A stretch of DNA of 64,000 nt from Thermococcus sibiricus MM 739 (lineage in GTDB: Archaea; Methanobacteriota_B; Thermococci; Thermococcales; Thermococcaceae). Positions 52,430-58,445 of this stretch are shown here, piece by piece (the first letter of the stretch is position 1; each line of letters opens with the position of its first letter). A model generated the notes under the pieces. The model worked only from the letters and a program-made list of their open reading frames with translations, did not search any database and was not told where the DNA came from. Made by a program: the position numbers and the translations under genes. The stretch is from the NCBI RefSeq assembly GCF_000022545.1, contig NC_012883.1, positions 1,728,276 to 1,792,275 on the forward strand, read 5' to 3'.

Positions 52430-54001
52430 TCAATCTTCGACACCTTTCTCCGTTATCGCAAAGGCTGCTTCGCCTTCGGGCAAGTGTGGAGAATCTATCA
52501 ACCTAGCGACTCTCTTACCCGCTTTTCCTTTCCTCAAGTACACCCTAACTGTAGCCGAGTGAGCCAATATGTGCCCACCAATTGGTCTTGTTGGATCTCC
52601 AAAAAACGCATCGGGCCTTGCTTGTACTTGGTTAGTCACAAAAACAGCTATATCGTAGAGGTTGGCTAGGCGATGGAGGTCAGCCAAATGCTTGGCAAGC
52701 TTTTGTTGTCTTTCCGCAAGAGTTCCTCTTCCCACGTATTCTGATCTAAAGTGGCCTGTTAAAGAATCTACCACAAGCAGCTTTACTGGCTTTTCTGAAG
52801 GTAGTTTTTCTTTTATTATCTCCTCAGCTTTCTCTACAAGAAGCATTTGATGGTTAGAGTTAAACGCTCTAGCCACATAGATGTTCTTCAAAACTTCGTC
52901 CGGGTCCATACCTCTACTTTCAGCTATTTGTTTTATTCTTTCGGGCCTGAAAGTGTTTTCTGTATCAATCCAAACAACACTTCCATTCAAACCTCCTTCT
53001 TCAGGAGGTTTTTGAACAATAACGGCAAGTGTATGAGCTAGTTGGGTGTTATGAAGTATTAACCCGTTAGGAGCTATGAAATTATGCGTTTCTGGAACAA
53101 CAAGATCATACACGTAGTCATTATAGTCAAATATTTCAACACTTTCTACTTGGTGGAAACGTAAATTAACCTCTGATTTTGGAGGCACTTCTCCAATTCC
53201 CACTACCCTATCCCCAATTTGTACTTCTGAAGCTTTAATCCATTTTAAACCATCTTTAAATACCAAGACTGGGTGAGATTGGGTTACTTTCAGTTCAATT
53301 CCTGTAGAAAGTTTTAACTTGACAAGCGTCGAAACTTTTTCTTTGTATATATACGAAACCTTAGTTTTCTCAACTTTTCTTGTTTTAATATTAAATGTAT
53401 AAACGCTCACTACTTCCAATGGAACTGCAAAACCATTGTCGAATGGAATTTCCCCATTTTTAGTGGCATACTTATTATACATTTCCTCTATACTTTCCAC
53501 ATGCGCCACATCATCGTTTTCATAATATACAGTCGTATCTTTTGCAAAGCATTTACCACTCCCAAATTCTCCGAATACTTCGGAAACGGCCTGTGTTTCG
53601 ATTCCTCCACCCAAAAGCTTATCTAATGACTTACTTCCTGTAGTAATCTTCCCAACAACCGCCCTTTTTTGAAAATATTCATCAGCACGCATAAAGGTCC
53701 CAATATTGGCCGCTTCTCTTGCGGCTTGAATTATTTTTAATGCTGCACCCTCACTTACCCCTGCAAGTTCTTTTAATTCGAGTGGAGAAGCGACGGCTAT
53801 TGCTTCCAAACTATCATATCCAGCTTCTCTGAGTTTTTCAGCAGTAGCAGGCCCAACTCCTGGTAGATCTTCTATACTTTTTATCTCTTTCTTATTTGAT
53901 CCCTTTGTTGGCTCCTCAACAGATAATTCATCAAGTGCGTCCAACTCTTCAAATTCATCAAGCTCTTTAACTTCATCCTCAATCTTTTTCTTTCTCGCCA
54001 T
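52430..54001 (-). CDS. radA: DNA repair recombinase RadA with a mini-intein
   Basis: The archaeal Rad51/RecA homologue that forms nucleoprotein filaments in homologous recombination. The precursor from ATG 54001 (site GGGTGATCCAA) has 523 residues; 355 remain after removal of the 168-residue intein. The extein shows the N-terminal helix-hairpin-helix domain ([20 protein letters not shown]), Walker [11 protein letters not shown] interrupted by the intein, and Walker [17 protein letters not shown]. The acidic N-terminus is typical. Activity depends on splicing because the P-loop is split. Confidence 0.95.
53048..53551 (-). other. RadA mini-intein, 168 residues, no endonuclease
   Basis: The intein lies between GEFGSGK and TQLAHTLAV, splitting the P-loop. 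It starts with Cys ([10 protein letters not shown]), has block [21 protein letters not shown] with the TxxH pattern, and ends [17 protein letters not shown] before Thr+1. The gap between the N- and C-terminal splicing blocks has no LAGLIDADG motif, so it cannot home by itself. The insertion site corresponds to the known RadA intein site of Pyrococcus/Thermococcus. Confidence 0.93.
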
Positions 54002-54153
54002 TTGGATCACCCATTAGCATAATCCTAAATAGTGGTAAATCCAAACTCCTTATATATTTTTCTCACTCCTGAAAAACCCATCAAAAAATTGAAAAATATA
54101 AAATCAAGTTGAAGTAAAACAAAAATTCGAAGATAAAGGTTTTAGAGCTCGAA

Positions 54154-55914: not shown

Positions 55915-56511
55915 GTGGAAGTTATAAAATGGTTGGAAGAAGGGTCTGATGAAGCAAAGGATATTGTTGATCTCCCCTGGAGTGTACATAAAAGGGCAGA
56001 AGGCCTTTATATTGCTGAATATCCAAAAATCCCATTTGTGTTGAATGTGGTGATAACTGAAGAATTTGTTCATCTAATTGTTCCTCTTGGAGTGGAAACT
56101 GTTGCATTGGAACTTCCTGAGCGACTAAAAGTATATCATACTCTTTTGATTCTCAATGAACAATTGAATCTCATAAAGTTCACAATAAAAGGGATGAATG
56201 AGGAGATAATGCTAAGGGTGGACCTCGACAGGAAAACATTGGGTAAGGGTGAGTTTAACGATGCACTAACGGCTCTACTTATTGGTTTGAATCAAGTTAT
56301 ATCTGCTTTGGGGCTTCAAGAAGAATTTGCTCGTGCAGTATTTGAAAGGATAGCATTAATGGTTATGGATCGGATTGAAAAAGGTGTAAAAAAAGAAGAA
56401 ATTCTTAAGTTTTTGGTTATGAAAGTCGGCATGGGCCAAAAAGATGCGGAAGAGTTCCTAAAACGAATAACTGAGCAAGTAAAACCAAAAGGGGAAGTTG
56501 GTTATTTATAA
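55915..56511 (+). CDS. YbjN-like (type III secretion chaperone-fold) protein
   Basis: A protein of about 198 residues from GTG 55915 (site GGTGATTCTA); ATG 55903 is the longer alternative. The first 130 residues show the alternating strands and helices of the YbjN/CesT chaperone fold (LPWSVHKRAEGLYIAEYPKI, PFVLNVVITEEFVHLIVPLG, VYHTLLILNEQLNLIKFTIK). The C-terminal 60 residues are helical. Members bind partner proteins, and no enzymatic motif is seen. It converges with the PIN gene and overlaps its end by 10 bases. The fold call is from pattern only. Confidence 0.6.
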   Translation: MEVIKWLEEGSDEAKDIVDLPWSVHKRAEGLYIAEYPKIPFVLNVVITEEFVHLIVPLGVETVALELPERLKVYHTLLILNEQLNLIKFTIKGMNEEIMLRVDLDRKTLGKGEFNDALTALLIGLNQVISALGLQEEFARAVFERIALMVMDRIEKGVKKEEILKFLVMKVGMGQKDAEEFLKRITEQVKPKGEVGYL

Positions 56512-57509
56512 TTATCTCTCAATTCCAATTTTTCCAGTTTTCTGCAGAGGTTCCAGTGGAAATGAAACTCTTGATATATGTCATTCATGAATCTTAACTT
56601 TAACTCATTCAGTTTTGTTTTTCCTCTGAATTCGCCAAATACTAGCACGTTGTTTATCTCAATTACTCCAAAGACTGCTGCCAAATTAAATAAAAGTGTT
56701 CTAAACTGGTAACCCGTTCCATAATGCTCCTTAAGTTCTTCATGAGGGTATTCAAATAGAAAGTATTCCACTCCTTCTATCCGTGCAATATCAGTCATTG
56801 CGATGTCTGCAGTTAGAAGAACTACTAAGGACGGGGTATTTTTATCAAACTCTTTTAGTGTCTTGATTATCAATTCATCGTTCGTGTTTGTTTTTTCATC
56901 AATACTCTTTACTTCAATTATTTTGTCTTTGAGTTTTTCATATTCTCTTAATGCTATGTAAGTGGCCTTACGCGATTTTTTCATCCTCCTATTGCTGAAC
57001 TCTTGTAAAAGGTGGGAATTATGGAGGATTCTCCCAAGCTCTCTTAAATGGGCGGGACTGTATTTGAAATTCATAGCATTCTCCACTTCTTTCTTCACCA
57101 GATCCACTATTGCAATTTGGACTCCTTCTATACCTTTAATTTTGCTGAGGAAAGCATGATAAAGAAGATTTGTATCTGGAGAGAATATTATTCTCTTTGT
57201 CAGACTCTTATATGTGGCCAACTTTTCTTCAAATTCATCTATATTGGCATATGTTATAATACTGCTTGAGAGAAAGCATTCATAAAAATCCCTGTATGTT
57301 GGGAGGTCATAGAAGTATTTCTCATGGCCATTCAAAATTTTATGGAACTCCTTTTCATGTGCGAGCACCTTAACTTGATATCCACGTTTGTAAGGATGGG
57401 CCTCTAAAAGAGGAAGGTCATATAAGGGTGCATTTACTTTAATTCTGTCTTTAGTCTGGATTAAGTTAATTAAAATTTGTAGATCGGCCTTTTCTATAAT
57501 TTCCTCCAT
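56502..57509 (-). CDS. PIN-domain nuclease paired with a CARF-like protein
   Basis: A 335-residue protein. The middle part has the PIN acidic set: Asp112 in SPDTNLLYHAF, Glu141/Glu143 in VKKEVENAMNF, Asp211 in NTNDELIIKTL and Asp235 in LTADIAMTDIA. This indicates a metal-dependent RNase. The first 100 residues and the C-terminal 80 are not recognised. ATG 57509 follows GGAGGGCCGCAG and lies inside the CARF-like gene (16-base overlap), so the two are co-expressed. Near the end, EFHFHWNLCRK is the translation of a dispersed repeat copy, so the C-terminus may have been altered by it. Confidence 0.75.
   Translation of the reverse strand: MEEIIEKADLQILINLIQTKDRIKVNAPLYDLPLLEAHPYKRGYQVKVLAHEKEFHKILNGHEKYFYDLPTYRDFYECFLSSSIITYANIDEFEEKLATYKSLTKRIIFSPDTNLLYHAFLSKIKGIEGVQIAIVDLVKKEVENAMNFKYSPAHLRELGRILHNSHLLQEFSNRRMKKSRKATYIALREYEKLKDKIIEVKSIDEKTNTNDELIIKTLKEFDKNTPSLVVLLTADIAMTDIARIEGVEYFLFEYPHEELKEHYGTGYQFRTLLFNLAAVFGVIEINNVLVFGEFRGKTKLNELKLRFMNDIYQEFHFHWNLCRKLEKLELRDNYK
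56543..56573 (+). repeat. Dispersed repeat copy 6, inside the 3' end of the PIN gene
   Basis: TGCAGAGGTTCCAGTGGAAA then TGAAACTCTTG. It is identical to copy 4 over GCAGAGG...ACTCT (28 bases). It lies within the last 25 codons of the PIN gene. Confidence 0.65.
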
Positions 57510-57973
57510 CTGCGGCCCTCCATGAAGTCTTTTAACCTCTGAACATGCAAGGGGATCATCATATACGGCCGATTGGAGTGTTCAATGTCTTGAAGTGAGA
57601 GGTAGAAAAGATGTTCTATTTCCAGTGGAAGTGCATGAATGGCAGCTCCTACAACAAGGGCTTTCTTCCCTGAGGTTATATCCATGGCGATTTCGTATTT
57701 ATTCTCTTTCAATGTCTTTAGAAGTGTTCCTATCTTTTCATCCGCTTCAAGAAAGTTGTCTTCTTCAATAATTTCCCAGTAGATTTTGGGTGAAAACCCA
57801 TATGCTTCAGATATTATTTTTAAAGCTTCAACAGTCTGAGGAAGTTTTCCCTCATGAGTATTTTCTAGAAAAATGTAGATTTTATCGGGCCTGTATCCAT
57901 TCATAACTACAGCATAGTAAGTGTTTACCAGGGCCCAAGTGGATCTTCCAAGCATTGTTATGTATGCTCTCAT
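57494..57973 (-). CDS. CARF-like domain protein (cyclic oligoadenylate sensor or ring nuclease)
   Basis: A 159-residue Rossmann-like protein. It opens AYITMLGRSTWALVNTYYAV, corresponding to the first CARF strand and loop, and carries AMDITSGKKALVVGAAIHAL (Asp98, Thr100, Gly102, Lys103), the second CARF signature seen in Csm6/Csx1/Crn1 proteins. Such domains bind cyclic oligoadenylate made by type III CRISPR complexes; short stand-alone versions can be ring nucleases. The start is ATG 57973 (site GAGTGAG). It is coupled to a PIN nuclease by overlap. No other CRISPR gene is in the window. Confidence 0.65.
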   Translation of the reverse strand: MRAYITMLGRSTWALVNTYYAVVMNGYRPDKIYIFLENTHEGKLPQTVEALKIISEAYGFSPKIYWEIIEEDNFLEADEKIGTLLKTLKENKYEIAMDITSGKKALVVGAAIHALPLEIEHLFYLSLQDIEHSNRPYMMIPLHVQRLKDFMEGRRWRKL

Positions 57974-57983
57974 TACACTCACT

Positions 57984-58445
57984 CTAATCTATTAGTATGA
58001 GGCCATACAAAACACTTTCGGAAAAGTTCAAATTTACTATGCTCGAGAGCTCTATACCAACTCCATCAATTGAGAACCTGACTTTTGTAGGTATTTTGCA
58101 TTTTTTTGTTTTCTTGAATTCACACTCTTTGCAGTAGTTGCAATCTCCTGGAAAGAAAGCCAATGCGTAAAAATTTCCGTTCTTAAATAACTCCTGTTCT
58201 CTATTGAGAAGGTACGTTAAAACCTCTCGCTTTTCATCATCAAATTTCTCAGGATCGACTTCGAATTTTATCAAAAGGGTCTTCTCGTAGTGTTTCATTA
58301 ATTCTTTGGTTTCCTTCCATGAAGGAGTATATGGTGGGCAAGAAGGGTTTTTAGCATATGCGGGGCAGCTTCTACACTTCCATATGGGCCTTGGTGAAAT
58401 TTTGATATCTTTGGCGAGGATTTCTTTTTCCCAAACAATTTTCAT
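57984..58445 (-). CDS. DUF2284 metal-binding protein
   Basis: A 153-residue cysteine-rich protein: CRSCPAYAKNPSCPPYTPSW near the N-terminus, then FPGDCNYCKECEFKKTKKCK. These match DUF2284, thought to bind metal or an iron-sulfur cluster. The function is unknown. It lies 11 bases upstream of the CARF-like gene on the same strand, so it may share a transcript with the defence-like pair, although the family is widespread in anaerobes without such neighbours. Confidence 0.85.
   Translation of the reverse strand: MKIVWEKEILAKDIKISPRPIWKCRSCPAYAKNPSCPPYTPSWKETKELMKHYEKTLLIKFEVDPEKFDDEKREVLTYLLNREQELFKNGNFYALAFFPGDCNYCKECEFKKTKKCKIPTKVRFSIDGVGIELSSIVNLNFSESVLYGLILID

Follow-up and report, generated by a model that had tools for sequence, protein, structure and literature searches.

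A small CARF sensor protein and a PIN-domain nuclease, encoded by two genes in Thermococcus sibiricus MM 739, form a split pair that is near-core in the Thermococcaceae and does not depend on type III CRISPR there. Judged by the predicted folds, the pair is a CARF-PIN effector in two genes, divided near the domain border. The role usually assigned to CARF domains is to receive cyclic oligoadenylates made by Cas10. The pair is kept intact even in relatives that have no Cas10, and it therefore probably answers to some other signal. On balance, it appears to be a two-subunit, ligand-gated RNase with a signal that does not come from Cas10 in the same cell.

The window, i.e., the whole stretch of DNA analyzed, is 64,000 nt and is part of a host genome of one contig (1,845,800 bases). 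The CARF gene is at positions 57494–57973 (minus strand) and encodes 159 aa from an ATG start; an alternative GTG start at 57982 gives a frame of 57494–57982 (minus strand) and 162 aa. The PIN gene (positions 56502–57509, minus strand) encodes 335 aa, also with an ATG start. The original prediction described a 159-residue CARF protein that overlaps a PIN nuclease by 16 bases, and the ORF coordinates agree with it (overlap at 57494–57509, minus strand). In other regions the spacing of the two genes is -17 to +2. The upstream neighbor is a gene for a DUF2284 predicted metal-binding protein in the same orientation (57984–58445, minus strand; Pfam DUF2284, 1.3e-29). Elsewhere in the window, at positions 52430–54010 (minus strand), there is a RadA-like recombinase gene, the frame of which is by eye seemingly interrupted by an intein (... 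LILHN).

The CARF protein of the window has both MLGRSTW and DITSGKK. In its first loop, residues 8–20 LGRSTWALVNTYY (57914–57952, minus strand), L8, R10, W13, Y19 and Y20 replace the V, T, E, L and W of the fused CARF-PIN. The second motif, TSGKK at residues 100–104 (57662–57676, minus strand), is TSGRK in most relatives and is largely common with the fused form. The protein is a full member of the PADLOC model CARF_m1--CARF (PDLC01971) with an E value of 2.2e-75; the next model is PDLC01973 at 4.2e-28. The CARF_m1 names presumably derive from the 2020 CARF census. The PIN protein matches Pfam PIN_4 (2.3e-7) and the PIN half of PADLOC CARF_m1--CARF_PIN (4.6e-16). Its acidic residues D112, E141, E143, D211, E212, D235 and D240 are invariant in 38/38 dereplicated proteins, i.e., the nuclease site is intact, and the acidic residues are complete as originally noted. 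The ORF calls, the PADLOC and Pfam matches and the pairing in 66/67 regions exclude a chance match or a misread frame. A mobile or plasmid origin was also rejected, as there is no phage match and a single plasmid match of 29% identity. VapBC systems consist of a small PIN toxin and a DNA-binding antitoxin; such a system was rejected because the PIN protein has 335 aa, including an additional N-terminal region, and its partner is a CARF protein. A non-CRISPR CARF protein of the RtcR type was rejected as well, since the protein is 159 aa and consists of CARF only, without fused AAA+ and HTH domains.

Structure prediction places the small protein in the CARF fold, as had been proposed. The AlphaFold model (pLDDT 89, pTM 0.86) has 50 listed matches in the PDB, and all 50 are CARF proteins. 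The best of the matches listed is to residues 1–138 of SiRe_0806 (Z 16.5, rmsd 2.4, 138 residues aligned). SiRe_0806 is a single fused CARF-PIN chain from Sulfolobus islandicus that has been deposited with and without cA4 (PDB 9jxw, 9jxx). The model of the PIN protein (pLDDT 89, pTM 0.89) aligns over residues 1–328 with residues 153–418 of the same chain (Z 16.5, rmsd 3.6, 241 aligned). PIN domains are matched from about residue 97 onward, and among the matches listed by VIA-align only SiRe_0806 covers the full length, so that the N-terminal part of the PIN protein (approximately residues 1–100) also has a counterpart in the second half of SiRe_0806. As both models share one chain as best match, the pair represents the halves of a CARF-PIN effector. 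The two proteins probably form a complex. Sequence searches of the PDB are far less informative. Single-sequence searches with the CARF and PIN proteins gave only matches taken as chance, the fused relative as query gave no useful match, and the PIN profile found nothing; SiRe_0806 was reached by fold comparison only. The CARF profile reached Sso2081, Sis0455 and a Csm6', together with several TAL-effector repeat matches taken as chance.

The profile match to Sso2081/Crn1, at about 1e-6, bears on the option in the original prediction of a ring nuclease plus a separate RNase, where the small CARF protein destroys cyclic oligoadenylates and the PIN protein is an independent enzyme. The CARF protein is small and stand-alone, as this would require, but it scores 13 bits with the Crn1 model NF040581 of NCBIfam, far under the cut-off of 125. 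Most carriers are without Cas10, hence without a known substrate for such an enzyme, and the tight pairing with the PIN protein, mirrored by the fusion in SiRe_0806, favors one machine. The ring nuclease option is thus very improbable.

Of the 201 genomes searched, 88 have the CARF protein, and 86 of these belong to the Thermococcaceae. The PIN protein was identified in 83/94 Thermococcaceae genomes. In G036, for example, CARF is at G036:C1:1057328-1057780 and PIN at G036:C1:1056349-1057308. The split pair, counted without genomes that have the fused form only, is present in 80/94 Thermococcaceae genomes, in 65/74 near-complete genomes and in 65/66 near-complete genomes outside genus g2. Non-carriers are clustered. 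All nine genomes of genus g2 are without the pair, which is thus dispensable there, and elsewhere the only near-complete genome without it is G060. A PIN profile search of 21 further genomes of the wider phylum at an E value of 1e-20 gave no match outside the Thermococcaceae. CARF and PIN adjoin on one strand in 66/67 regions, including the window; the 67th (L028) hits a contig end and was left out of the CARF alignment and the split-vs-fused comparison. After dereplication at 93% the CARF alignment has 41 of 67 sequences and the PIN alignment 38 of 66. Over 60 regions, sequence distances are correlated between CARF and PIN (r 0.88), CARF and DUF2284 (0.77) and PIN and DUF2284 (0.86), as expected for mainly vertical descent.

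Substitution patterns show that the split pair is under purifying selection, also between genomes without Cas10. Using only pairs with dS of 0.1–1.5, which are not independent of one another, the median dN/dS between Cas10-less genomes is 0.23 in 137 CARF pairs and 0.15 in 176 PIN pairs, and the closest CARF pairs have values of 0.01–0.09. Between Cas10-positive genomes the medians are slightly lower, 0.14 for CARF and 0.12 for PIN. The 37 Cas10-less regions have invariant CARF residues L8, G9, R10, W13, A14, N17, Y19, Y20, T100, G102, K104, Y124, R135–M139, P141 and Q145, and in PIN the acidic residues do not vary either. One PIN gene is naturally interrupted, in a Cas10-positive genome (G002, locus L042), where an insertion of about 930 bp breaks the frame after approximately codon 202 and a 9-bp repeat is found at the insertion borders. 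This locus was left out of the PIN counts, dN/dS, Cas10-less invariance and distance analysis. The orphan position of the pair could fit a one-time type III effector that no longer functions, an origin that has been proposed for VC1899. Such a degenerate leftover is extremely improbable in view of the near-core conservation, the dN/dS of about 0.2, the invariant predicted pocket and PIN residues, and the occurrence of this operon in further lineages of archaea.

The relationship to Cas10 was determined in 94 Thermococcaceae genomes. Matches to PF22335 are present in 36 of these, but two of them (G048 and G074) are mCpol and were removed before the association tests, which leaves a Cas10 set of 34. 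The two mCpol genes, the only ones above cut-off in the 94 genomes, are stand-alone frames that also trigger the Cas10 palm model (G048:C1:888432-888779, 137 aa; G074:C109:38165-38527, 147 aa). With only 2/94 genomes above cut-off, mCpol was rejected as the signal source. The lists of split and fused genomes were compiled by hand from the CARF, Cas10 and PIN searches, and the tests take no account of the relatedness of the genomes. Cas10 is found in 27/80 carriers of the split pair (53 are without it) vs. 7/14 non-carriers (p 0.37). In near-complete genomes the numbers are 23/65 carriers vs. 6/9 non-carriers (p 0.14). Both Cas1 and Cas10 are missing from ten near-complete carriers (G009, G014, G019, G025, G045, G049, G062, G063, G069, G088). 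RAMP subunits largely parallel Cas10, with weak or partial exceptions in Cas10-less G060, G062 and G085; in Cas10-positive G034 and G077 the RAMP search found none. The host itself has no Cas10 match (PF22335), no RAMP subunit and no mCpol. It does have Cas1, which indicates some other CRISPR locus in the host.

The original prediction was correct as to the pairing of CARF and PIN and the location away from type III genes. Its proposed signal source, the type III complex, is contradicted by the host, which lacks Cas10, RAMP subunits and mCpol, and by the 94 genomes, in which the pair does not track Cas10. The prediction was to be given up if relatives with the pair never encode Cas10, but 27 of the 80 carriers do encode it. 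The pair also differs from a type III effector in that sensor and nuclease are in two genes in 66/66 regions and not in one polypeptide, and in that Cas10 is missing from the same genome, with 0 matches in the host and none in 53/80 carriers.

The fused CARF-PIN protein of the same family behaves very differently and provides a built-in control: it follows Cas10 in 18/18 genomes, whereas the split form ignores Cas10 and is near-core. Cas10 is present in 18/18 carriers of the fused form vs. 16/76 non-carriers (p 2e-10), i.e., the fused form is found in 18 of the 34 Cas10 genomes and in none of the other 60. The fused gene is within 20 kb of Cas10 in 16/18 genomes. The split pair is within that distance in 1 of 13 genomes that have both on one contig (G061, 15 kb), and in 14 further genomes the pair and Cas10 are on different contigs.

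These distributions bear directly on the possibility that the pair is a standby type III effector, an ordinary cA4-activated RNase kept on the chromosome and used once a lineage gains a type III locus. The closest solved relative, SiRe_0806, was crystallized with cA4, Cas10 is present in 27/80 carriers, and the CARF residues T100, K104 and Y124 are retained. Type III loci come and go, and carriers without Cas10 today may have had it recently. However, Cas10 genomes show no enrichment of the split pair but complete enrichment of the fused relative, genus g2 has Cas10 in 6/9 genomes yet no split pair, and the predicted pocket loop is altered. A standby effector is therefore rather unlikely.

A comparison of 73 split CARF sequences (7 from outside the Thermococcaceae) with 17 fused sequences shows where the predicted pocket differs. 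One fused frame, L115, is shortened and was dropped, so that 17/18 were used in both the tree and the comparison. The divergent L146 and L147 (plus L117 for PIN) were left out of the comparison, as their N-terminal part is unalignable; in L146 and L147 the R10 loop falls outside the frame used. Residues common to both forms are G9, A14, N17, T100, G102, R103, K104, Y124, P141 and Q145. Near-invariant differences (split/fused) are L8/V, R10/T, W13/E, Y19/L, Y20/W, E37/N, A77/F and A105/F. Residue 10 is R in 72/73 split and T in 17/17 fused sequences, and residue 37 is E in 72/73 split and N in 17/17 fused sequences. The fused form thus has the loop VGTSPE with N37, and the split form has LGRSxW with E37. 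Four residues that contact cA4 in Can2 are common with Can1, namely Ser19, Thr42, Lys99 and Tyr118 (PMC7969007). By alignment and model, K104 and Y124 would correspond to Lys99 and Tyr118, and R10/S11 and E37 probably sit where Ser19 and Thr42 would. The predicted pocket is read as binding a ligand of the same general kind, but a different one. In the PIN tree a branch with support of 100 separates 30/30 split rows, with the divergent L117, L146 and L147 among them, from the 17 fused rows; this is a long branch that triggers the program's warning of long branches meeting.

DUF2284 is near CARF, upstream, in 61/61 Thermococcaceae regions. A three-gene unit was nevertheless rejected. DUF2284 is found in 74/74 near-complete genomes including those without the pair, a gap of 461–473 bp separates it from CARF in 20/61 regions, and it does not adjoin the pair outside the Thermococcaceae. 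It is treated as a stable neighbor rather than as a proven component. In seven regions (L079, L078, L083, L056, L057, L064, L086) the gap has a gene of about 150 aa that by eye is membrane-protein-like.

The pair is also found in other archaea. A genome scan gave 34 loci, 23 of which are from records titled Thermococcus, Thermococcaceae or Thermococci. PIN adjoins CARF in 10 of the 11 other loci; the remaining one (L151) has a short CARF match and no pair. The ten loci are from MAGs of Archaeoglobus, Geoglobus, Archaeoglobales, Methanomethylicota, Methanomicrobiaceae, Methanomassiliicoccales and Euryarchaeota, and four of the ten genomes have Cas10. The end of PIN adjoins or overlaps a HAD hydrolase gene in 7/10 loci, five from Archaeoglobales and two from Methanomethylicota (L125, L127, L130, L132, L135, L137, L149); L136 has the pair but is absent from the gene listing behind this count. 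In L149 the CARF and PIN frames are both shortened or broken and the HAD gene is split into two frames. CARF-HAD proteins are known effectors (Chp, PMC12715507), and a HAD gene beside the pair thus fits an effector role. In the Archaeoglobus MAGs L125, L127 and L130, two genes are located upstream, one of which encodes an AAA_5 ATPase. The other was tested in L125 and L127 and is McrBC (PF10117) in both; in L125 it overlaps the start of CARF. This McrBC neighborhood suggests defense, and for the Thermococcaceae the near-core status points to stress physiology or to a general abortive response.

Some other neighbors were seen at single loci or in one group. In the Geoglobus MAG a small VapC-like PIN gene is seen by eye between CARF and PIN (L132:6714-7133), and a Cas4-like protein, below cut-off at 7.8e-7, is directly upstream of CARF. 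Both Methanomethylicota MAGs have a CARF-like HFX_2341/DUF6293 regulator upstream of the pair (L137:3355-4110, L135:69-833); the call is from Pfam for L137 and from a similar start for L135.

A mechanism can be proposed for the two-subunit RNase favored above. The CARF protein would dimerize, and the dimer would bind a small (possibly cyclic) nucleotide or an RNA end. Ligand-bound CARF may then act via the N-terminal part of the PIN protein and switch on a putative metal-dependent RNA cleavage, which would slow or stop growth. In the Thermococcaceae the signal would be made by something other than Cas10 in the same cell. By analogy, candidate ligands are RNA ends (as in RtcR), c-di-AMP or a novel messenger. 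A broader form of this model is possible but falls somewhat short of even chances. It presents the pair as a conserved archaeal signaling unit of CARF sensor and PIN RNase subunits that would respond to a CRISPR-unrelated nucleotide or RNA signal, with a maker enzyme as yet unrecognized as partner, near-core in the Thermococcaceae and an operon in Archaeoglobales and Methanomethylicota.

The best explanation with a named ligand is a housekeeping sensor of RNA damage or nucleotides. CARF would bind RNA ends, e.g., tRNA fragments with a 2',3'-cyclic phosphate, or c-di-AMP, and PIN would remove damaged RNA or slow translation. The CARF domain of RtcR is a precedent, as it binds tRNA halves with cyclic phosphate ends (PMC7790460), and a gene of the diadenylate cyclase family is present in 74/74 near-complete genomes. 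However, genus g2, which is without the pair, has the cyclase as well; this explanation is unlikely as it stands. If the favored ligand-gated RNase senses something other than cA4, it represents a CRISPR-independent branch of CARF signaling in archaea, and the split-vs-fused comparison points to the pocket residues to test. If it senses cA4, most Thermococcaceae have a receiver for which no transmitter is known, an equally informative outcome.

The original prediction considered that the arrangement may be undescribed. This is only partly the case, as the structure of a fused CARF-PIN protein with bound cA4 has been solved and PADLOC already includes the CARF half as a family. The literature searched gave no account of a conserved split pair or of Cas10 independence, and no paper naming SiRe_0806; the 2020 CARF census (10.1093/nar/gkaa635) was outside the scope of the search. 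The novelty claimed is for the combination of facts measured; that the CARF family exists is not claimed as new. Two CARF families have been associated with PIN (PMC4012209). PIN RNases are among the effectors activated by cyclic oligoadenylates, and CARF homologues are abundant outside CRISPR-Cas (PMC12669027).

Compared with known systems, RtcR is similar in having a CARF domain outside CRISPR (PMC7790460), but it is a transcription activator with AAA+ and HTH domains and has no nuclease partner. The orphan CARF nuclease VC1899 (DUF1887), proposed to be derived from a type III effector by loss of function (PMC7969007), has a PD-(D/E)xK nuclease in one chain and is judged degenerate, whereas the split pair has PIN, two chains and strong conservation. 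PADLOC PDLC01971 includes the CARF half as a full member but is a model of a lone CARF protein, and its name mentions neither the PIN partner nor Cas10 independence. SiRe_0806 has the CARF and PIN folds in the same order, each similar to the corresponding split protein at the same Z score, but it is one chain, was not reached by the sequence profiles and has been deposited in complex with cA4. In the Thermococcaceae, the fused CARF-PIN protein (PDLC01973, CARF_m1--CARF_PIN) is in the same superfamily group and has PIN residues D112, D211 and D235 and CARF residues T100, K104 and Y124 in common with the split pair. It differs in that it is a single polypeptide, is found in Cas10 genomes only and is mostly located near Cas10.
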